The notes below the pieces were generated by a model. The model made no database searches, was not told the DNA's origin, and saw only the letters and a program-made list of their open reading frames with translations. A stretch of 64,000 nucleotides of DNA from Enterobacter cancerogenus (GTDB lineage Bacteria > Pseudomonadota > Gammaproteobacteria > Enterobacterales > Enterobacteriaceae), in NCBI RefSeq assembly GCF_019047785.1, contig NZ_CP077290.1:2294001-2358000 (forward strand). The letters are read 5' to 3'. A program made the position numbers and the translations under genes. Positions 42,029 through 51,226 of this stretch are shown here, piece after piece; within the stretch, counting starts at the first letter, position 1, and each line of letters begins with the position of its first letter.

Positions 42029-42454
42029 TTACGCCTCACCAAGACGCAGCAGGCTCTGCTGCATGCTTTTCACATTGTTAAGAACATCGACGTTGGTTTC
42101 GAAGTTACGCGACGCCGACATCATGTCGGCCATCTCTTCCACCACGTTGATGTCCGGGTACCAGACGTAGCCGTCCGGGTTAGCCATCGGGTGATGCGGC
42201 TCGTAGCGTTGCACCGCATTTCCTGATTCCACCACGTCCAGAACCTGAACGCGGGCACCGGACAGGGCCTTGTCGCTCATCAGCTCATCGTTCTGGTAAA
42301 CCGCGGCAAATACCGGACGACGCGCCTTGTACACATTCCCCTCATCCACCGCCGGGGTTTCGGCGTTGGCGAGGTTACTGGCGATGGTATTGAGGCGAAC
42401 GGTTTGCGCCGTCATTGCTGAACCCGAAACGCGGTAGATATCGCTAAAAGCCAT
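42029..42454 (-). CDS. lfgC: Proximal rod protein FlgC type (LfgC)
   Basis: 141-residue rod subunit with LNTIASNLANAETPAVDEGN near the N-terminus and YPDINVVEEMADMMSASRNF near the C-terminus. Between lfgB and lfgD. Confidence 0.94.
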   Translation of the reverse strand: MAFSDIYRVSGSAMTAQTVRLNTIASNLANAETPAVDEGNVYKARRPVFAAVYQNDELMSDKALSGARVQVLDVVESGNAVQRYEPHHPMANPDGYVWYPDINVVEEMADMMSASRNFETNVDVLNNVKSMQQSLLRLGEA

Positions 42455-42473
42455 TTTCTGTCACCTGATTCAA

Positions 42474-42824
42474 TTACTTACCTTCAATTGCCTTCTTCAG
42501 GCCGGTGAATTTCATGTTTAAAAACGCCAGGCTCATCTGGTAGTCCTGCACGTTTTTAGAAAACTCCGCCTGTTCCACATCCAGCGCGACGGTGTTGCCG
42601 TCCGAGGAGGGCTGATAGGGCACGCGATACATCTCCTGCGGCGCTGAGCCGGGAAAGAAATCCCGCTGCGAACGTTGCATCTCAGCGGCAAAATCAATAT
42701 CTTTAGCCTGGAAATTGGGGGTATCGACGTTAGCCAGATTTGCTGAAAGCAGTTCCGCCCTGGAAAGTCGAAGTGCTACAGCCTGCGGATGAACACCCAA
42801 TGCCTTATCAAACGTAATACTCAC
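42474..42824 (-). CDS. lfgB: Proximal rod protein FlgB type (LfgB)
   Basis: 116-residue rod subunit with SANLANVDTPNFQAKDIDFA (about 28-47) and the C-terminal MSLAFLNMKFTGLKKAIEGK. First gene of the long lfgB-to-lafW operon, 60 nt downstream of a perfect sigma54 promoter. Confidence 0.94.
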   Translation of the reverse strand: MSITFDKALGVHPQAVALRLSRAELLSANLANVDTPNFQAKDIDFAAEMQRSQRDFFPGSAPQEMYRVPYQPSSDGNTVALDVEQAEFSKNVQDYQMSLAFLNMKFTGLKKAIEGK

Positions 42825-42880
42825 AACTCACTCCTTCGTGATGATGGACGCTGCGATAGTCCTGTTGCTTCAGCCTTTTA

Positions 42881-42897
42881 AAGCAACTATCGTGCCA
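42881..42897 (-). promoter_or_regulatory. Sigma54 promoter of the lfgB operon
   Basis: On the minus strand TGGCACG-atag-TTGCTT, a complete -24/-12 consensus (GG 42896-42895, GC 42884-42883). Start near 42871, about 47 nt before the lfgB ATG. Nearly the same sequence as the lafB promoter, so both should answer to one activator, LafK. Confidence 0.9.
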
Positions 42898-42910
42898 GGT
42901 TTACAACATC

Positions 42911-43696
42911 ATGATTTATAAAGATTTACCTACAACCGCGACCGCAAACGGGAAGCGCCGTTTCCGCCGGGCCATGCCGACTGCGCTGCTCTGCTTTCTC
43001 GCGTTTTCCGCCGTGGCACAGCCGCAACCCTCCACCGCGCGCAAGCAGGTCTATGCCCGCGTTCAGCAGCAGGCCGCCGACCTCATTCGTCATGAGGCGG
43101 AACGTCAGCGCTGGGAGGATTACCAGGCGAAGCTCAACCTGTTTATTCCCGCCGAGATATCGAACTACGCCCCGTGCCCCGTGCCGCTGAGCCTCAGCTC
43201 ACCGGGCGGCGAGCGCCTGGACTTGCGCCGCCTGCGCTTTGACGTGCGCTGCGACGCCGCAAGCGGGTGGGACATCGCCGTCACGGTCAAACCGGACATC
43301 TACCTGCAGGTGCTGATGGCCAAAAACACCCTGGAGCGCGGGCATGTGATGACCGCGTCCGACATCACGCGCAGAAAATTCAATATCAGCAATTTGCGCA
43401 GCGGCTACATCACCCGCCCGGACGACGTGGTGGGCCTGACGCTGAAACGCCGTATCCGCGAGTTGCAGCCGCTGAGCCTGAGCCAGCTGGATTCACCGGT
43501 CATGGTCGAGCGCGGCCAGCGGGTGTTAATGATTGCCGACCAGGACGGCGTGGAAGCACGCACCATGGGGATTGCGTCGAAAAAGGGCCGTAAGGGGGAG
43601 ATGATCAAGGTGAAAAACGAGAGCAGCGAGCGCGAAGTGACGGCAATGGTCATTGATATGGGCGTTGTCAGAACCGGCTATAGCGCGGCGAAATAA
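42911..43696 (+). CDS. lfgA: P-ring assembly chaperone FlgA type (LfgA)
   Basis: 261-residue periplasmic chaperone with a signal sequence (RRAMPTALLCFLAFSAVAQ, cleavage near residue 37, after an unusually long charged N-region). A SAF domain follows (KNTLERGHVMTASDITRRKF) and the FlgA C-terminal domain (GQRVLMIADQDGVEARTMGI to VIDMGVVRTGYSAAK). The ATG at 42911 may be too far upstream; ATG 42974 would give a more normal signal peptide. Divergent from lfgB. Confidence 0.9.
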   Translation: MIYKDLPTTATANGKRRFRRAMPTALLCFLAFSAVAQPQPSTARKQVYARVQQQAADLIRHEAERQRWEDYQAKLNLFIPAEISNYAPCPVPLSLSSPGGERLDLRRLRFDVRCDAASGWDIAVTVKPDIYLQVLMAKNTLERGHVMTASDITRRKFNISNLRSGYITRPDDVVGLTLKRRIRELQPLSLSQLDSPVMVERGQRVLMIADQDGVEARTMGIASKKGRKGEMIKVKNESSEREVTAMVIDMGVVRTGYSAAK

Positions 43697-43816
43697 AATC
43701 CTCGCCGCATTTAAGTTTTGCCGTTCATGCGCCGCTTTACCCTGGTAAGGCGCCCGGAAAGCCACTTTCCGCCCCGGCGAAAACGACCAATAAAAATCCG
43801 ATGATGGAGTAATGCG

Positions 43817-44089
43817 ATGAAAGTGACATCCAGCCAGTATGCAATGACGAGCGCGATCAACCAGGCCAGCTCTGCGGCCCCGGTGCGCAAGACCGGCGCT
43901 GAAGAGATGAAAACGACAAAAACCGCAGCCATCGACCCCGTTCTTGGCGATGCGCAGACCCAGATGGCAGCTCTGCCAGAGGTCGACATGGCGCGTGTAG
44001 CCAGTATGAAAGAAGCGATTGCCAGCGGGAAAATCAGCGTCGATCTCGACTCGCTGACCAGCGCAATCGAGAAATATTATCAGAGGTAA
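43817..44089 (+). CDS. lfgM: Anti-sigma28 factor FlgM type (LfgM)
   Basis: 90-residue protein that binds the sigma28 factor (LafS) and is exported once the hook is complete. C-terminal FlgM helices are VDMARVASMKEAIASGKISV and DLDSLTSAIEKYYQR. Good ribosome binding site GGAG at 43806-43809. 2 bp before lfgN. Confidence 0.9.
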   Translation: MKVTSSQYAMTSAINQASSAAPVRKTGAEEMKTTKTAAIDPVLGDAQTQMAALPEVDMARVASMKEAIASGKISVDLDSLTSAIEKYYQR

Positions 44090-44091
44090 AA

Positions 44092-44532
44092 ATGAGTAAC
44101 GCCGCACAGTGCGTCAAAACGCTGGTTCAGGGTATGGTCGAAGACCGCGACACCTATGGCAAACTGAAAACCCTGCTCGCCGACCAGCGCCAGTGGCTTA
44201 TTGCACGCGATACGGCAAAGCTGGACCAGCTTAACCCGCAGCTTATCGCCTGCTACGAGCAACTGTCGCACAACAGCAAACAGCGCTACCAGCTGCTCAC
44301 CCAACTGGGTATTCCCGTCGGCACGCCCGGCCTGCGCACGCTCTTTTCTCGCCTTCCTGCTGCCCACCAAAAACAGTTAACCACCCTCTGGGGTTCCCTT
44401 GAACAGGTCGCCGCCGAGTGCAAGGCGCTGAATGATCGCAATATTACGGTGCTGACCATGCAGCAGGACATCCTGCAAAATCTGTTAAATATCAGCGAGC
44501 CGGAAAACTGGCTGTATGAGCAGGGGCGCTAA
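44092..44532 (+). CDS. lfgN: Flagellar chaperone FlgN type (LfgN)
   Basis: 146-residue helical export chaperone for the hook-associated proteins LfgK and LfgL. FlgN-like pattern YGKLKTLLADQRQWLIARDT and the C-terminal NDRNITVLTMQQDILQNLLN. It overlaps the next gene in TAATGA. Confidence 0.87.
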   Translation: MSNAAQCVKTLVQGMVEDRDTYGKLKTLLADQRQWLIARDTAKLDQLNPQLIACYEQLSHNSKQRYQLLTQLGIPVGTPGLRTLFSRLPAAHQKQLTTLWGSLEQVAAECKALNDRNITVLTMQQDILQNLLNISEPENWLYEQGR

Positions 44533-45665
44533 TGATCGGTTTTTACATGGAAACGATTGAAAACACGCGTTTCTACTGTCGTGTTATTCAAGGATTGCCC
44601 GTCAGCGAGCAGCAGAACATTATTGCCATCTCCCCCTGGCAGCAGATTACCGACTGGCTGAGTACACAGCCAGGTCAGCACGCGATTTTGGGGATTAGCG
44701 GTGAAATCGACATCCCTTCGCCACAGGCCTTTCAACAGCATAAGCCCGCGATATATTCCCGTATTGAACGCGACATTCGTATTTCCCGTGAATTTTTAAT
44801 ACAGGGAATGTCCTTTGAGCGTTGCTGGAATCTTTATTTGTATCTTCTGCTGCAACTGATGAATAAGCCCGAACTTAGGGCCCTGACGAAAATGATCCTT
44901 TGTTCCGGCAATGGGCTGGCAGAAAAGCCTGCCGCGCTTTTTTGTCAGCAACACAATATTGTCACGCGTTATACCGAACTGGCGAATTTTCCCAATAAGG
45001 TGTTTATCGATCCCGAGGGGGCAAATGCGCTTTCCGCGCTGGCGAAAAACCCTTCATGCCTTGATGCCCTTCCTGCCGTGTCAGACGAATTTCATGCAGA
45101 ATGGATGGCCTACTACGAAACTGAAAAACGCCAGCCACCGCTGCAGGCACGCAACAATCCCTGTACACCTCTGATTGCGAAAATCGCAAAAGACACCGTT
45201 CTGCCGCGCAAACAAGGCTTTCTGTTCCTGCCGCTGCAGGTCTCGTACGATACACAGCTTTGGCTTAATGCCGAGCTGCGTAATAAAGAGGCTATTCTTC
45301 ACGGCTGTCGCGCCGCACGACAGGAAAAGCGGGAACTGGTGGTCAAGATCCATCCGGCGGAAACTGCACCCGACGAATTGCTTGATATCGCTCGTCTCCA
45401 GCAGCAGCATAATTTTATTATTACGCAGGAGAACACGCTGGATTTGATCAAAGCCTCTGGCCGGGTACTAACGATTAACTCGACCGTAGGAATAGAAGCG
45501 CAGCTGTATCATAAACCTGTTGAAATCTTAGGCCGCGCCTTTTACAAACACTTCGATCATGAGCGATTGAAAAAGTATCTTCATCATTATCTCTTTACCG
45601 GCGTTGAGGTTCGCGCCCAAACGCCTATCGCGGAAGCCACCGCCCGCGCGTTTATCAGACATTAA
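44532..45665 (+). CDS. Capsule-type (KpsS/LipB-like) glycosyltransferase in the flagellar cluster
   Basis: 377-residue cytosolic protein. The C-terminal half matches the capsule polysaccharide synthesis (Kdo-transferase-like) pattern: LPLQVSYDTQL near residue 235, KIHPAE near 275, and LTINSTVGIEAQLYHKPVEI with LGRAFY near 315-340. The N-terminal half is not recognised. It starts inside the lfgN stop (TAATGA), so it is cotranslated with flagellar genes. This suggests modification of lateral flagellin, not capsule synthesis, since no capsule gene is near. Donor and acceptor are unknown. Confidence 0.75.
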   Translation: MIGFYMETIENTRFYCRVIQGLPVSEQQNIIAISPWQQITDWLSTQPGQHAILGISGEIDIPSPQAFQQHKPAIYSRIERDIRISREFLIQGMSFERCWNLYLYLLLQLMNKPELRALTKMILCSGNGLAEKPAALFCQQHNIVTRYTELANFPNKVFIDPEGANALSALAKNPSCLDALPAVSDEFHAEWMAYYETEKRQPPLQARNNPCTPLIAKIAKDTVLPRKQGFLFLPLQVSYDTQLWLNAELRNKEAILHGCRAARQEKRELVVKIHPAETAPDELLDIARLQQQHNFIITQENTLDLIKASGRVLTINSTVGIEAQLYHKPVEILGRAFYKHFDHERLKKYLHHYLFTGVEVRAQTPIAEATARAFIRH

Positions 45666-45670
45666 CGCTT

Positions 45671-46333
45671 ATGGAAACTATTCACTGGGACGCGTTTTCC
45701 CGCATCATCTATATCAACCTCGCCCATCGTCGCGATCGGAATGTGCGCATGAAGCATCATCTCCGTGAACTGCTTGCGCCGAAAGAGAAAATCATCCGCT
45801 TCGATGCTATCAAGGCGTCGCCGGGTGCCCTTGGCTGCGTGAAGTCACATATCGCCGTACTGGAGATGGCGATGGAAAGCGATTGGGAAGATGTTTTAAT
45901 TTTTGAAGATGATTTTCAGTTTGTGCGCGACGATGAGAATATTTCACGTCTGAACAAATGGCTTCATACGCTCGATGCCGTCCGTTGGGATGTGGCGTTT
46001 CTTTCCGCCAACTATCATCGCGTAACGCCTTTAAAAAGTGTCGATTACCTGCTTCGCGTTAATCAGGCGTGGTGCGCCTGCGCCTACCGGGTGAAACGTC
46101 ACTATTATCCCCATCTGCTGGCCAATTTCCGCCAAAGCCTGGCTTATCTTGAGCAGGGCGGTGACCCACAATGCTTTGCGCTGGATGTTCACTGGTGGCA
46201 TTTAATGATGAAAGACTGTTGGCTGGGCCTTTACCCCTGCGCCGGCTATCAGGCGCCTGATAAGAGCGATATTGAGCAAACCCACATTGACTACCGCCCG
46301 TTATTCTTTAAACCCCTTGATGCGATAACGTAA
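45671..46333 (+). CDS. GT25-family glycosyltransferase in the flagellar cluster
   Basis: 220-residue protein of glycosyltransferase family 25 (LPS/collagen galactosyltransferase type): IIYINLAHRRDRNVRMKHHL at 12-31, FDAIKASPGALGCVKSHIAV near 44-63, and the metal/nucleotide-sugar motif VLIFEDDFQFV near 75-85. It has a C-terminal region with DVHWWHLMMKDCWLGLYPCA. 5 bp after the KpsS-like gene, and followed by a terminator, so it ends the lfgA-lfgM-lfgN transcript. Predicted to glycosylate lateral flagellin or a related acceptor. Confidence 0.82.
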   Translation: METIHWDAFSRIIYINLAHRRDRNVRMKHHLRELLAPKEKIIRFDAIKASPGALGCVKSHIAVLEMAMESDWEDVLIFEDDFQFVRDDENISRLNKWLHTLDAVRWDVAFLSANYHRVTPLKSVDYLLRVNQAWCACAYRVKRHYYPHLLANFRQSLAYLEQGGDPQCFALDVHWWHLMMKDCWLGLYPCAGYQAPDKSDIEQTHIDYRPLFFKPLDAIT

Positions 46334-46358
46334 AAAAAGCGGCAACAGCCGCTTTTTT
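46332..46358. terminator. Bidirectional terminator between the GT25 and methylase genes
   Basis: AAAAAAAGCGGC/GCCGCTTTTTT hairpin with a 4-nt loop and A/T tracts on both sides, between two convergent genes. Confidence 0.88.
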
Positions 46359-47296
46359 CAGATTAACGATAATCCACACAGCAGCACGAAATCCGCACTG
46401 ACATCATTCTCGTCTTCACTCGCATCCTGAGCCTGCCAGGCGTACCACGCGCTGAACAGCCCGGTAAACTCATCTGCCGTTAATTGTGCGTTATCTTCAA
46501 GCCACATGGCACAGAGCATCTTCAACTGGAAGAACTGCCGCGTTAAGGATTTTAACGCCACGCCATAGTTGCTGACGTTACGGCACGGGAAATAGTCGCC
46601 GTACAAACGATACAGCAGGACGTTGTGCACAATGAAGGGCTGCTCAGAAAAGAGCGGGATCTGTTTCGCATCGAGTTCGCGTAAACGTTCCTGCAGTCGT
46701 GCCGGCTGCATTACCGCCAGTTCGCTGAGCTTGAACATCAGCATCATTTTCTGCATACCCGGCACATTCAGGTTCAGGCGCATTGCGCCCATCTCGCCCA
46801 GCGCCTCGACGCGGTTCACCTCAATCGGCGGCAGCAGAGACAGTTGCTCGTTTAAAATGCCCGCCTCAGCCAGCTGCGCAAGCTGTTCGCCCATGGCGAT
46901 GAGATCCTGCGGGTCGCACTGGTTCTCATCACGATAGCGCTGCGCCTTGCTGAGGAGCACGCCGATGGCGTAGAGGCGGCTTTCCAGCGTCAGCCCTGGA
47001 TGGACCGCCATGTTTATACACTGCTGGTTTAAGGCTTCATCCCAGAGGCTATGCTCCGCAATGCCGTCAGTTTCGGTTTCGCCGGAATGCAGCATAAAGG
47101 CTTCCGGGTTTAGCAGGATCTCCCGCGCCGCGCTTTCGCAGGCCGCGTTGAGGCTCTCTCGCTGCTGGTTTCCCACCGTCAGACGCGTTTTTGGCCAGTC
47201 GCCAGCGGCGTCCTGACAGGCCGGGCATTCGCACGCCGCGTCGCGTGCGTTAAACCTGATCACGTATTCAGGTTGGTACTGTTCTATCAATTCCAT
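46358..47296 (-). CDS. FliB-like flagellin lysine N-methylase
   Basis: 312-residue protein resembling FliB, which methylates surface lysines of flagellin. The N-terminus has the FliB opening QPEYVIRFNARDAACECPAC (residues 8-27), and VLLYRLYGDYFPC lies toward the C-terminus. The cysteine cluster of the family (FRC...C...CC.GW) is changed: the first Cys is Ala/Asn, leaving Cys22, Cys24 and Cys27 before GDW. Length is below Salmonella FliB (about 400). ATG 47296 has GGAG eight bases upstream; ATG 47335, overlapping the preceding gene, is the alternative. Function is a family-based guess and activity is uncertain. Confidence 0.62.
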   Translation of the reverse strand: MELIEQYQPEYVIRFNARDAACECPACQDAAGDWPKTRLTVGNQQRESLNAACESAAREILLNPEAFMLHSGETETDGIAEHSLWDEALNQQCINMAVHPGLTLESRLYAIGVLLSKAQRYRDENQCDPQDLIAMGEQLAQLAEAGILNEQLSLLPPIEVNRVEALGEMGAMRLNLNVPGMQKMMLMFKLSELAVMQPARLQERLRELDAKQIPLFSEQPFIVHNVLLYRLYGDYFPCRNVSNYGVALKSLTRQFFQLKMLCAMWLEDNAQLTADEFTGLFSAWYAWQAQDASEDENDVSADFVLLCGLSLI

Positions 47297-47331
47297 ACAT
47301 GCTGCTCCAGCCGCTACAGTGGCGGCGATAC

Positions 47332-48717
47332 TCATTGAAAGTTTTTGCGAAAAAACCAGTGGGTACAGTCGATAACGTCACCGCTGGCGGGATCGGGGAT
47401 CTCAGGTAAAAAGGCAAAGCTGGGCTGTAACCCCAGCCAGCAGTGAGACTGCATCTGCATGGGCCAGCAGGCGTCGAGGCTGACGCCATGCTCGTGCGCC
47501 TGTTGGTAAAAATCACGCAGCGTCGGGATATAGCTGCCGTTAACGGCATAGGCACAGCCGCAACCGGCGCTCAGCACACGCGCTACGCCGGGCAACGCTT
47601 TCAGAAGCGAGATGTCGTTATATCGCGCCCCCAGCAACACTACCTGCCAGTCGATATGCGGCAAACGGCTCAGCAGCTGATTGACCGTTTTCAGCGAGTT
47701 CTCTTTGCGCACATACTTCAGGCGAGCATCAAGCAGCACCACGCTGCGCCACTGCTCACGTTGCGCCACGTCCAGCACCTGAATGTGCGCCTCCAGCTCG
47801 CTATGGCCGGGGTCGCGGGCGAACGGCACCAGATGGTGGTTATCAAGCCCCAGCGAGGAGAGCGCCTGCAGCTGCGCCGCAAGAACCTCGGGCTGCGCCG
47901 GGTCATACATCACCGCCACCTTGTCAAACGCGGCCCAGTCCACCGAGGTGCTCAGCGGTGCCTGGCTCAGACGCCGGTAGTGGCTCAGCAGGTTGCGGTC
48001 GGTGACAAAATCCTCCAGCGTCAGGTCCACCGGCGTGGAGGAGCCAAGCACAAAATCTTTGTCGTAGGTGTTGGCGCTGTGGGAGATACACAAAATCGCG
48101 TCGCGCGGATCGATCTGCTGTATCGGCGCGGTGAAATTGTTCAGAAACGCCTGCTCTTCCGCGAGGGTGGCCGTGTCTTCATAACGGTGATTTTTCAGGA
48201 AGTTGCGGTGATAGCCGAACGTGCCGTTGAGCGCATGGCGCTCACCAAAAGCGTGCGTGCGGTAAATTTTATCGAGATGGCTGTACCAGATATAGATGGT
48301 GTCGCTACCGGAAAACAGCGCGTTGTTATGCTGCATCGCCGCCACCTGCGTGCTGATTTTGGTCGGCGGATAATAGTCGTCATCGTCAAAACAGAGGATG
48401 TACTCGCCGCTCGCCATCTCGTTCAGCATGTTGCGCTTCTTACCGAGATCGAGCCGCTCCGGGCTGTGCACGTAGCGCACGTTACCCACCGCAGGGTCGA
48501 CCATCATGGCGATCAGGTCTTCGTTACTCTGTTCCGAATCATCAAGAATAATCAGCTCGCGCTTGTCGGCCGGGTAGTCCTGATACTGGAAGATATAGAG
48601 CAGATAGGGCAAAAACGCCCGGCGATTCCAGGTCGGACAGACGACGCTCACAAACGGGGTCGCGTAGGTCTTTTTCTGCTGCTGGCGTTTCAGCAGCGTC
48701 TGCATCAGGTTGCTCAT
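47332..48717 (-). CDS. Two-domain glycosyltransferase (GT2 plus degenerate GT25)
   Basis: 461 residues. The N-terminal domain (about 20-230) is a GT-A family 2 enzyme with SVVCPTWNRRAFLPYLLYIF, LIILDDSEQ and the DxD-type motif YILCFDDDDYY. The C-terminal domain (about 255-461) parallels the GT25 protein at 45671-46333: IDWQVVLLGARYN, a CGCAYAVNGSYIPTL segment and MQSHCWLGLQPSFAF. Its acidic motif (EDD in the GT25 gene) reads LLDARL, so this half may be non-catalytic. It starts right at the lfiJ stop and overlaps the methylase frame at its end. Likely flagellin glycosylation. Confidence 0.82.
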   Translation of the reverse strand: MSNLMQTLLKRQQQKKTYATPFVSVVCPTWNRRAFLPYLLYIFQYQDYPADKRELIILDDSEQSNEDLIAMMVDPAVGNVRYVHSPERLDLGKKRNMLNEMASGEYILCFDDDDYYPPTKISTQVAAMQHNNALFSGSDTIYIWYSHLDKIYRTHAFGERHALNGTFGYHRNFLKNHRYEDTATLAEEQAFLNNFTAPIQQIDPRDAILCISHSANTYDKDFVLGSSTPVDLTLEDFVTDRNLLSHYRRLSQAPLSTSVDWAAFDKVAVMYDPAQPEVLAAQLQALSSLGLDNHHLVPFARDPGHSELEAHIQVLDVAQREQWRSVVLLDARLKYVRKENSLKTVNQLLSRLPHIDWQVVLLGARYNDISLLKALPGVARVLSAGCGCAYAVNGSYIPTLRDFYQQAHEHGVSLDACWPMQMQSHCWLGLQPSFAFLPEIPDPASGDVIDCTHWFFRKNFQ

Positions 48718-49161
48718 TTATCGGTGTCGCTGTGCCTGTTGTTGACGCAGCCAGCACTGGGCGGAGACCGCGTCCGTGGTTTTCTGATCGCGGCGCTCCT
48801 GCGCCAGACGATGCTCTTTCCGACGCGATTCCAGCACCACTTCGAGGCTTTTTTCGCGGCGAGACTCCGCCAGCAGGTTGCCCTGAAGTTTTTGAGCCTC
48901 GACGTGCGCCAGCGCCTGCTCCTGCTTCTGCCAGTCGATCACGCGCTGAATATGGCGCTTATAGCCGGACTGATTGCACAGCAGCGTTGCGCTGCCCTGC
49001 ATCTCCTGCACGCTGTTGTTCGCCAGGTGGGTCAGGGCGTCAATATTCTTCTCCAGCCGCTGGCACAGCTGCTGCTGGGAGGCCAGACGGGCACTGAGAT
49101 CGTTCACCGCGCGGTTGCGCAGCAGGTGTAGCTGTTCAAGGGTAGTAATCAGTTTGCTCAT
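48718..49161 (-). CDS. lfiJ: Flagellar export protein FliJ type (LfiJ)
   Basis: 147-residue coiled-coil protein (LEQLHLLRNRAVNDLSARLA, then LEKNIDALTHLANNSVQEM) ending in Gln/Arg-rich helix. FliJ is the stalk-like activator of the export ATPase. It follows lfiI by 6 bp. Confidence 0.85.
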   Translation of the reverse strand: MSKLITTLEQLHLLRNRAVNDLSARLASQQQLCQRLEKNIDALTHLANNSVQEMQGSATLLCNQSGYKRHIQRVIDWQKQEQALAHVEAQKLQGNLLAESRREKSLEVVLESRRKEHRLAQERRDQKTTDAVSAQCWLRQQQAQRHR

Positions 49162-49167
49162 CGCGAA

Positions 49168-50487
49168 TTATCCTGCCTGGGCCAGCGCGTTAAGGTCGGC
49201 AATGGTGTTGCCGAGCGGGGCCGCGTTCTGCACTTCCTGCTGCAGGAAACGGGTTATCGCCGGCGAGAGGTTGACCGCTCTGTCGGCCACGGGATCGGCT
49301 CCCGCCACGTAGCCACCCAACGGGATCAGCGGCTTAATGCTCTGGTATTCGGCGTAAAGCTGCTTGAGGGTGCGGGCGGCGCGTTGATGATCCTGTTCCG
49401 TCACCTGGCTCATACAGCGGCTGATGGACTGACCGATATCAATCGCCGGATAGTGCCCGGCCTCTGCCAGATGACGCGAGAGGACGATATGGCCGTCGAG
49501 CACGGCGCGCGCGCAGTCGACAATCGGGTCCTGCTGATCGTCACCTTCTGCCAGCACGGTGTAGATGGCAGTCATGGAGCCCAGGCTTTCACTGTTGCCC
49601 GCGCTTTCAACCAGCTTCGGGATCAGGCCAAACGCCGACGGCGGATAGCCTTTAGTGGCAGGCGGTTCGCCCAGCGAGAGCGCGATCTCACGCTGCGCCA
49701 TGGCATAGCGGGTAAGGGAATCGACCAGCAGCAGCACGTCCTTGCCTTTGTCGCGGTAGTAGCTGGCGATGGTATGGCACAGCTCGGTGGCTTTAATGCG
49801 CATCAGCGGCGACTCATCCGCCGGGGCGGCGACAATCACCGATTTACGGCGTCCCGCCTCGCCCAGCGAGTGGTCGATAAACTCTTTGACCTCGCGTCCA
49901 CGCTCGCCGATAAGCCCAACCACCACCACTTCGGCCTGGGTGTAGCGGGTGATCATCCCGAGCAGCACGCTTTTCCCCACGCCGCTGCCCGCCATCAGCC
50001 CCACACGCTGGCCTTTGCCAATGGTCAGCAGGCCGTTGATCGCCCGCACGCCAACGTCGAGCGGCTCCGCAACCGGCTGGCGTTTTAGCGGATGAACCTG
50101 CGGGAGCTGCTGCGGCAGCACGGTATCGCCGGTCAGCTTGCCTTTGTCGTCGATCGGTTCGCCAAGGCCGTTGACCACGCGCCCGAGCCACTGGTCGCCA
50201 ATCAGCACTCCGTGCTGTTTGTCCATCGGAAAGACGCGCGCGCCCGCCATCAGTCCGGCAGGCTGTTTGAAGGGCATCAGAAAGGTGACGTCGCGGTCAA
50301 ACCCGACCACCTGGGCGTCAATCAGCTCGCCCTCGCCCCCTTCCACCTGGCACAGCTGGCCCACGGCCAGACGGCAGCCGACGCACTCCAGCAGAATGCC
50401 CGCCACGCGCACCAGCCTTCCGGCCACGCGGGCGAGGTTAATGTTTTCAAGCGAGCGCAGGACCTGCTCGAAATCGTGATCACTCAT
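49168..50487 (-). CDS. lfiI: Flagellar export ATPase FliI type (LfiI)
   Basis: 439-residue ATPase of the type III export apparatus. Walker A AGSGVGKS (166-173), Walker B VLLLVDSLTRYA with Asp256, the GERGREVKEF motif (195-204) and PPATKGYPPSAF are all intact. Its start overlaps the lfiH end by 8 nt. Confidence 0.96.
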   Translation of the reverse strand: MSDHDFEQVLRSLENINLARVAGRLVRVAGILLECVGCRLAVGQLCQVEGGEGELIDAQVVGFDRDVTFLMPFKQPAGLMAGARVFPMDKQHGVLIGDQWLGRVVNGLGEPIDDKGKLTGDTVLPQQLPQVHPLKRQPVAEPLDVGVRAINGLLTIGKGQRVGLMAGSGVGKSVLLGMITRYTQAEVVVVGLIGERGREVKEFIDHSLGEAGRRKSVIVAAPADESPLMRIKATELCHTIASYYRDKGKDVLLLVDSLTRYAMAQREIALSLGEPPATKGYPPSAFGLIPKLVESAGNSESLGSMTAIYTVLAEGDDQQDPIVDCARAVLDGHIVLSRHLAEAGHYPAIDIGQSISRCMSQVTEQDHQRAARTLKQLYAEYQSIKPLIPLGGYVAGADPVADRAVNLSPAITRFLQQEVQNAAPLGNTIADLNALAQAG

Positions 50488-51226
50488 CGTGCGATTCCGG
50501 CAGCAGGTTAGCTTTCAGAGCGTCCATACACTGATCGAGGCGGTGCTGGCAGCCCACGTCCATCTCGGTGGTATTGGTGATCACCCGGCACTCGCCGGGC
50601 GGCAGGTCGGGGTCTGCGGTCAGCCCCCAGTGCGCCGCTTTGTCCGGCTCCGCTTCGCTGATGCGGCGATGCTCGTCGCTGTTGAGCAGCACTTTGACCT
50701 GCTCCGGCTGCTGCGGCAGCGCGGCAAGCGCCTCCTCCACGAGGGTAAGGATTTGCGTCGGATGCAGGGTCAGCTCGCAGCGGATCACCTGGCGGGTCAC
50801 TTTTTCCACCAGCTGCAATAATTCTTCCCGGCGACGCTGTTCGTAATTCGCCATGAAGCTTTCCATCGAGGCGATAATGCTGTCCAGCGGGTGCGCGGCT
50901 TCGAGGAACTGCTGGCGCGCCTGCGTTTTGCCTTCAGAGCGGCCCTTGCGCACCCCCTCGTCAAAACCGAGGCGTAATCCTTCCTGATATCCTTCCTCTT
51001 TGCCCTCTTCCAGCCCCTGCGCGAAACCGCTGTTCAGCCCTTCCTGAAAGCCCTGCTGCAGTTGGGATTGCAGGGCGGCATCGTCCGGGACGTGGCGCAT
51101 CTCGTCGGGGAGACTCTGGGCCACGCGACGTTTGCGCAGCGGCGGAAACTTGTGCAGACGCGGTTTAATCACCGCCTGTCGGCTGTTGGTCAGGGCGCTC
51201 AGCGGTAAGCTTTGTTTTTTGTACAT
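50480..51226 (-). CDS. lfiH: Flagellar export regulator FliH type (LfiH)
   Basis: 248-residue stator of the export ATPase. It contains the FliH glycine-repeat helix (GFQEGLNSGFAQGLEEGKEE and GYQEGLRLGFDEGVRKGRSE, about residues 58-98) with GxxxG periodicity, then a C-terminal ATPase-binding domain. Confidence 0.91.
   Translation of the reverse strand: MYKKQSLPLSALTNSRQAVIKPRLHKFPPLRKRRVAQSLPDEMRHVPDDAALQSQLQQGFQEGLNSGFAQGLEEGKEEGYQEGLRLGFDEGVRKGRSEGKTQARQQFLEAAHPLDSIIASMESFMANYEQRRREELLQLVEKVTRQVIRCELTLHPTQILTLVEEALAALPQQPEQVKVLLNSDEHRRISEAEPDKAAHWGLTADPDLPPGECRVITNTTEMDVGCQHRLDQCMDALKANLLPESHDE

Follow-up and report, generated by a model that had tools for sequence, protein, structure and literature searches.

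Between lfgN and lfiJ, flag-2 loci carry a variable region 1 (VR1) described by De Maayer et al. (2020; PMC6993521). According to the accessible text of that account, VR1 occurs in 382 of 592 flag-2 loci, glycosyltransferases in 341 and LafV in 342 of the 592, GT25 (glycosyltransferase family 25) proteins in 26 taxa, and TagB and TagD in 65 and 235 strains; its content was proposed to glycosylate and methylate flagellin. We analysed this slot in a 64,000-nucleotide stretch of Enterobacter cancerogenus (contig NZ_CP077290.1, positions 2,294,001 to 2,358,000; the window), which belongs to a genome of 4.82 Mb in one contig (G000). The original prediction, made from the DNA letters of the window, had placed four genes between lfgN and lfiJ, and open reading frames (ORFs) together with domain matches bear this out: a KpsS-like protein, a stand-alone GT25 enzyme, the FliB-like protein LafV and a two-domain GT2-GT25 glycosyltransferase. 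The cassette very probably modifies the flag-2 filament, and motifs and a predicted structure place its KpsS-like protein with the retaining beta-transferases of 3-deoxy-D-manno-oct-2-ulosonic acid (Kdo). The window agrees with the published VR1 in the slot itself, GT2/GT25, LafV, variable content and the proposed flagellin modification, so slot, variability and proposed role are not new. As far as its accessible text goes, the cargo named in the VR1 account comprises TagB/TagD and sialyltransferase, with neither a Kdo-type transferase nor an acceptor motif mentioned, and the main text contains no word that starts with "kps" or "capsul". Its commonest glycosyltransferase, GT2-1 (222 strains), may be the GT2-GT25 protein found here. 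The putative Kdo-type enzyme in the slot and a candidate target motif are the new proposals.

Three described enzymes, WbbB (GT99), KpsC (GT107) and KrkA (GT140), have the QxxxD motif, the HP motif and the whole-chain fold in common with the KpsS-like protein (accessible parts of PMC9587256, PMC10148158 and PMC12887879), and by analogy it is expected to use an ulosonate activated with cytidine monophosphate (CMP). Their acceptors are O-antigen, capsule lipid or capsule repeat, whereas the KpsS-like protein is associated with a flagellin slot and with GT2-GT25. The flagellin glycosyltransferase CbMaf takes Kdo as a substitute donor in engineered Escherichia coli, adding 220 Da per Kdo, and resembles our proposal in the O-modification of flagellin Ser/Thr (PMC11339370, accessible parts). 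It is, however, a Maf enzyme in an engineered host, and none of the four cassette proteins matched a Maf family in Pfam and NCBIfam profile scans. This substitute case was the only Kdo-modified flagellin noticed in the literature, with most subscription papers outside scope and absence thus unproven, and within the same limits titles and abstract openings yielded nothing on a Ser-Gly motif or sequon in lateral flagella.

A probable Kdo-transferase-type enzyme in the flagellar slot

The PF05159 match of the KpsS-like protein (51.5 bits) covers residues 221-339 only, and a modified GT-B fold is predicted across the whole chain. Its closest fold matches are CMP-Kdo enzymes, with the O-antigen enzyme WbbB nearest, and structural alignments with retaining beta-Kdo transferases gave 10-18% identity. 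The QxxxD motif corresponds to Q236 and D240, the latter aligning with the position of WbbB D232, and the HP motif to H274-P275; all four residues are invariant in an alignment of 37 sequences, and the six flag-2 copies all read KxHPxE. The general-base glutamate of the superfamily is Glu158 in WbbB; a candidate counterpart in the KpsS-like protein is E149, likewise invariant in the 37. Motifs and model make it highly likely that the protein is a CMP-ulosonate transferase, and Kdo is its probable donor.

The enzyme had earlier been called a capsule-type transferase, a label borrowed from a misleading family name: the protein groups with retaining beta-Kdo transferases and is nearest in fold to WbbB. 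It scored 29.5 bits against the capsule KpsS family NF050054, below the curated cut-off of 600, and no partner PF05159 protein (KpsC) was found, the slot gene being the sole PF05159 match in G000 (kpsMT was not searched). The same cassette was not seen beside capsule or lipopolysaccharide (LPS) genes in 392 genomes of the family. Full-length relatives share 71-87% identity with the KpsS-like protein; eight of the 392 genomes matched it in part only, mainly over its C-terminal half, and three partial relatives (L007-L009) lie beside genes that by eye resemble O-antigen genes, e.g., flippase and Glf. If the assignment is true, a PF05159 match in a flagellar locus does not by itself mark a capsule gene for annotators.

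Slot content across genomes

LfiJ matches were found in 63 of the 392 genomes and the 58 stronger ones were used (weak matches left out: G098, G154, G209, G310, G370). A further 13 genomes came from the genus, where a set of 61 gave 15 LfiJ matches, two of them already counted, resulting in 71 flag-2 genomes. Slots at a contig end or with no lfgN found in the stretch were kept (G165, G237, G145), and those of G325, G363 and G362 were read in two pieces. The Fisher and rank tests reported below ignore kinship. Slot content varied while the borders stayed, with a few slots cut or rearranged, which agrees with the literature and with the earlier suggestion of a variable cargo slot. Two layouts predominated. 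In layout A, lfgN is followed by cargo and then by LafV, GT2-GT25 and lfiJ on the opposite strand; in layout B, LafV and GT2-GT25-X follow lfgN in its own direction, ahead of a convergent lfiJ, X being a third module fused at the C-terminus. GT2-GT25 was present in 59 of the 71 genomes, a LafV match in 58 and both in 56; three had GT2-GT25 without LafV, two a LafV match only (G195, G434) and ten neither.

Module X is TagB-like, with PF04464 scores of 19.9 and 18.7 bits (cut-off 22.1) in two of three fusions scanned and the third not listed. A TagB-like module, separate or fused, occurred in 31/71 genomes (fused in 22), and a KpsS-like module in 6/71 (G000, G096, G402, G419, G426, G446), never alongside a TagB-like one. 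The G096 slot has the same four parts as the window, two of them joined: an 883-aa GT2-GT25-KpsS protein ends in the KpsS-like module, and LafV and a separate GT25 lie alongside. Five of the six KpsS-type genomes had a stand-alone GT25 with EDD (<260 aa), vs. three of the 53 remaining genomes with GT2-GT25 (P = 6e-5). The window cassette consists of a resident pair (LafV and GT2-GT25) and a swappable pair (KpsS-like and GT25); of the dedicated system first envisaged, the filament-modification role stands and the single four-gene unit does not. Sister genomes G445 and G446 (L162, L168) have an identical LafA centre and different slot cargo, a pattern consistent with an end module that can be exchanged while the acceptor stays as it is, and one that suggests a recent module exchange.

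In the G086 slot (L104), ORFs resembling Rhs repeats and an IS3-type transposase lie, by eye, between the glycosyltransferases. In G265, G147 and G355 (L092, L101, L116), two ORFs take the place of a single LafV or GT2-GT25, which suggests cassette decay in some lineages.

The LafA centre and the Ser-Gly motif

The lateral flagellin LafA had been described as having a short Ser/Ala/Gly/Thr-rich centre, and this is what residues 171-180 (SASGASGAAT) and 204-214 (SGASGASATTT) hold, all being S, A, G or T. LafA was read in 61 of the 71 genomes, one copy each although many have more; the other ten were G069 and G237 (no match), G040, G115, G125, G147, G265, G267, G313 and G388, of which G040 and G069 lack GT2-GT25. 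The median number of Ser+Thr in the LafA centre was 22 with GT2-GT25 (n = 51) compared to 11.5 without (n = 10; P = 7e-5), and in layout A alone it was 16 (n = 28) against the same 11.5 (P = 0.003). Within the strict centre, after the conserved F-x-[IV]-G, ASG occurred in 41/51 genomes with GT2-GT25 and 0/10 without, and [AVTIL]SG in 49/51 and 1/10. The total of 102 [AVTIL]SG motifs compares with 26 +- 5 in shuffled centres, and the GT-less set had 1 against 1.5; it is enrichment, and not absence, that exceeds chance.

On a tree of 68 genomes (FastTree, midpoint-rooted, no support values), we counted at least 7 changes in GT2-GT25 status and 8 in motif status. The ten genomes that lack GT2-GT25 and gave a LafA fall in five places: the clade G196/G270/G075/G434/G374, G180 paired with G060, and G195, G273 and G171 as singles, each next to GT2-GT25 genomes. 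The motif is absent from all ten except G374 (one ISG). These patterns leave initiation at Ser-Gly by GT2-GT25 an evenly balanced proposition. A second G000 flagellin (L297, G000:C1:4563747-4564643) also has an Ala/Thr/Ser/Gly-rich centre with ASG and might be a second acceptor.

A probable sugar donor

TagD-like genes were present in 27/31 TagB-like slots (e.g., L082, L088, L120) vs. 1/40 others (P = 3e-14), the two scanned scoring 123 and 116 bits for TIGR01518, under the cut-off of 165. TagB-type cargo therefore seems to bring its own supply of glycerol activated with cytidine diphosphate (CDP), and this suggests that such slots put glycerol-phosphate on their flagellins. None of the six KpsS-type slots held TagD. 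In G000 there was exactly one CTP_transf_3 match, which is KdsB, and no NeuB; four further KpsS-type genomes had one CTP_transf_3 match each, unnamed, and no NeuB. With no TagD in the cargo and, in G000, only KdsB and no NeuB, CMP-Kdo from LPS synthesis is the simplest donor.

Proposed modification and alternative explanations

We lean slightly toward reading the cassette as a cytoplasmic kit for O-glycosylation and methylation of LafA in the flag-2 VR1 slot. From the gene anatomy, the motifs, the predicted fold and the co-occurrence described above we infer every catalytic step, their order, the donor and the acceptor. GT2-GT25 would put the first sugar on the Ser of [AVTIL]-Ser-Gly in the LafA centre, as co-occurrence suggests, and the stand-alone GT25 would extend it by one sugar. 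The KpsS-like enzyme would then cap the chain with a terminal Kdo from household CMP-Kdo by double displacement, through a covalent Asp240-Kdo intermediate; here predicted fold and motif are in evidence, and donor, intermediate and acceptor are conjectural. LafV would N-methylate LafA lysines, the least certain of the steps, and the modified LafA would be exported. The two cargo steps would be exchangeable for a TagD/TagB-like, presumably glycerol-phosphate, module, with initiation and methylation unchanged. As a general statement, native O-glycosylation of some enterobacterial flag-2 flagellins at [AVTIL]-Ser-Gly by a tandem GT-A GT2-GT25, with a Kdo cap from the LPS precursor pool added by a flagellin-dedicated retaining transferase and an end module exchanged between Kdo and glycerol-phosphate while acceptor and initiator stay constant, is a tentative proposal that we would not yet favour. 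If true, a native flagellin would carry Kdo, otherwise familiar mainly as a sugar of LPS and capsule; flag-2 filament glycosylation would gain both an acceptor motif and an enzyme to initiate it; and VR1 variability would be explained by a core (GT2-GT25, LafV) that stays while the end-group module is swapped.

Several observations weigh against this reading. The Ser-Gly link is correlative, drawn from related genomes and uncorrected for kinship, and G009 and G419 have GT2-GT25 and no motif in the strict centre. Among 19 flag-1 flagellins picked from flagellin matches as a control, [AVTIL]SG occurred in 10/15 from GT2-GT25 genomes and 2/4 from GT-less ones (ASG in 7/15 and 0/4), and FliC of G000 carries one ASG. 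The motif is thus not peculiar to LafA and alone does not mark it; the earlier tie between LafA centre and glycosyltransferases survives in that the centre tracks GT2-GT25, and is weakened in that flag-1 flagellins share part of the motif. The number of Lys in the LafA centre did not differ with the presence of GT2-GT25 (P = 0.41), so the centre lends methylation no support. G426 has a KpsS-like gene without a stand-alone GT25, and the stand-alone GT25 ORF of G419 is short (113 aa). Elsewhere in its genome, G419 also encodes NeuB and a second CTP_transf_3. The related GT118 enzyme KpsS1 uses CMP-pseudaminic acid (accessible part of PMC12887879), which means that the donor does not follow from fold and motif alone. 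These last two points, and the TagB-like module with TagD, implying CDP-glycerol, that the same slot holds elsewhere, would suit a KpsS-like enzyme that builds the LafA glycan from another CMP-activated ulosonate or a CDP-polyol instead of Kdo. We regard this as unlikely, given the CTP_transf_3 and NeuB results in G000 and four other genomes, the lack of TagD in the KpsS-type slots and the CMP-Kdo enzymes among the best fold matches.

A role of the glycosyltransferases on LPS, O-antigen or a lipid carrier, with the slot merely a convenient insertion site, would be in keeping with WbbB acting on O-antigen and KpsC on capsule (same sources), with the distant, mostly C-half relatives near flippase- and Glf-like genes and with GT2-GT25 relatives outside the family. 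It is nonetheless quite improbable: all 47 genomes of the family sample with GT2-GT25 matches below 1e-100 also have a flag-2 LfiJ match, the genes are fused or overlap mutually and adjoin flagellar genes, and the LafA motif tracks GT2-GT25. A shade less probable again is that the cassette has decayed or fallen silent and serves no function today. The accessible text of PMC6993521 describes deletions and flag-2 loci suspected of being non-functional, split ORFs occur in the three genomes named above, and a promoter scan found no sigma-70-type promoter-like site within 42400-50600; against this, the four ORFs are intact and overlap or adjoin flagellar genes, three of the four keep catalytic-type motifs, and full-length KpsS-like relatives exist.

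Organization of the slot and its other proteins

The four ORFs form two convergent pairs, KpsS-like then GT25 in the direction of lfgN, and GT2-GT25 then lafV in that of lfiJ (Table 1). One base is common to lfgN and the KpsS-like gene (CTAATGATC), 5 bases separate the latter from GT25, lafV and GT2-GT25 overlap by 4 bases and GT2-GT25 adjoins lfiJ with a gap of 0, so the predicted coupling to flagellar genes holds at both borders. In Enterobacter asburiae INSAq146 (L137) the gene order from lfgN to lfiJ is identical and the gap between KpsS-like and GT25 is also 5 bases. The first pair had a G+C content of 49.6 and 50.7%; the second pair had 56.5 and 57.9%, and lfgM, lfgN, lfiJ and lfiI 56-64%. 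At the convergence, repeat arms of 21 nt (46323-46343 and 46348-46368; 81% complementary, 4-base loop) have the core AAAAAAGCGGC-AACA-GCCGCTTTTTT and form a probable bidirectional terminator, as in the original prediction. The terminator scan, however, did not list this site, and it returned no more sites than its shuffles (9 vs. 9.0).

Table 1. Features of the slot, its borders and the proposed acceptor (window positions).
Feature	Position	Strand	Details
lfgN, flag-2 chaperone, left slot border	44092..44532	+	PF05130, 78.6 bits
KpsS-like, putative retaining beta-Kdo-transferase-type glycosyltransferase, swappable cargo, 377 aa	44532..45665	+	PF05159
Stand-alone GT25 glycosyltransferase, 220 aa	45671..46333	+	PF01755, intact EDD
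Inverted repeat between convergent pairs	46323..46368	.	46 bases, probable bidirectional terminator
lafV, FliB-like putative flagellin lysine N-methylase, resident, 325 aa	46358..47335	-	NF038110 match
GT2 + GT25-like two-domain glycosyltransferase, resident, 461 aa	47332..48717	-	PF00535
lfiJ, right slot border	48718..49161	-	PF02050, 54.9 bits
lafA, lateral flagellin, proposed acceptor, 313 aa	30004..30945	-	five [AVTIL]SG motifs in centre

LafV had no Pfam match and scored 57.6 bits against the NCBIfam FliB family NF038110, below the cut-off of 85; the FliB-like assignment is retained in this qualified form, and methylation would follow from it by inference. The stand-alone GT25 scored 30.6 bits (gathering cut-off 24). 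The first half of GT2-GT25 scored 63.5 bits and keeps DDDD intact at 111-114. The second half has no Pfam match and is 34% identical to the stand-alone GT25 over residues 302-454 (E 2e-18); EDD is not kept there (D330 A331 R332, placed by eye), column 330 being D in 32/36 sequences and columns 331-332 varying. The AlphaFold2 model of GT2-GT25 has a predicted local distance difference test score of 89, and its two-domain build resembles human COLGALT1, with a root-mean-square deviation of 8, 12% identity and a Z score tied with single-domain GT2 matches. Unlike in COLGALT1, it is the first domain that retains the acidic motif, the GT25-like one does not, and the likeness does not imply a shared function. 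Relatives of GT2-GT25 at ~50% identity occur in Burkholderia and Pandoraea (P0171, P0172, P0177, P0178).
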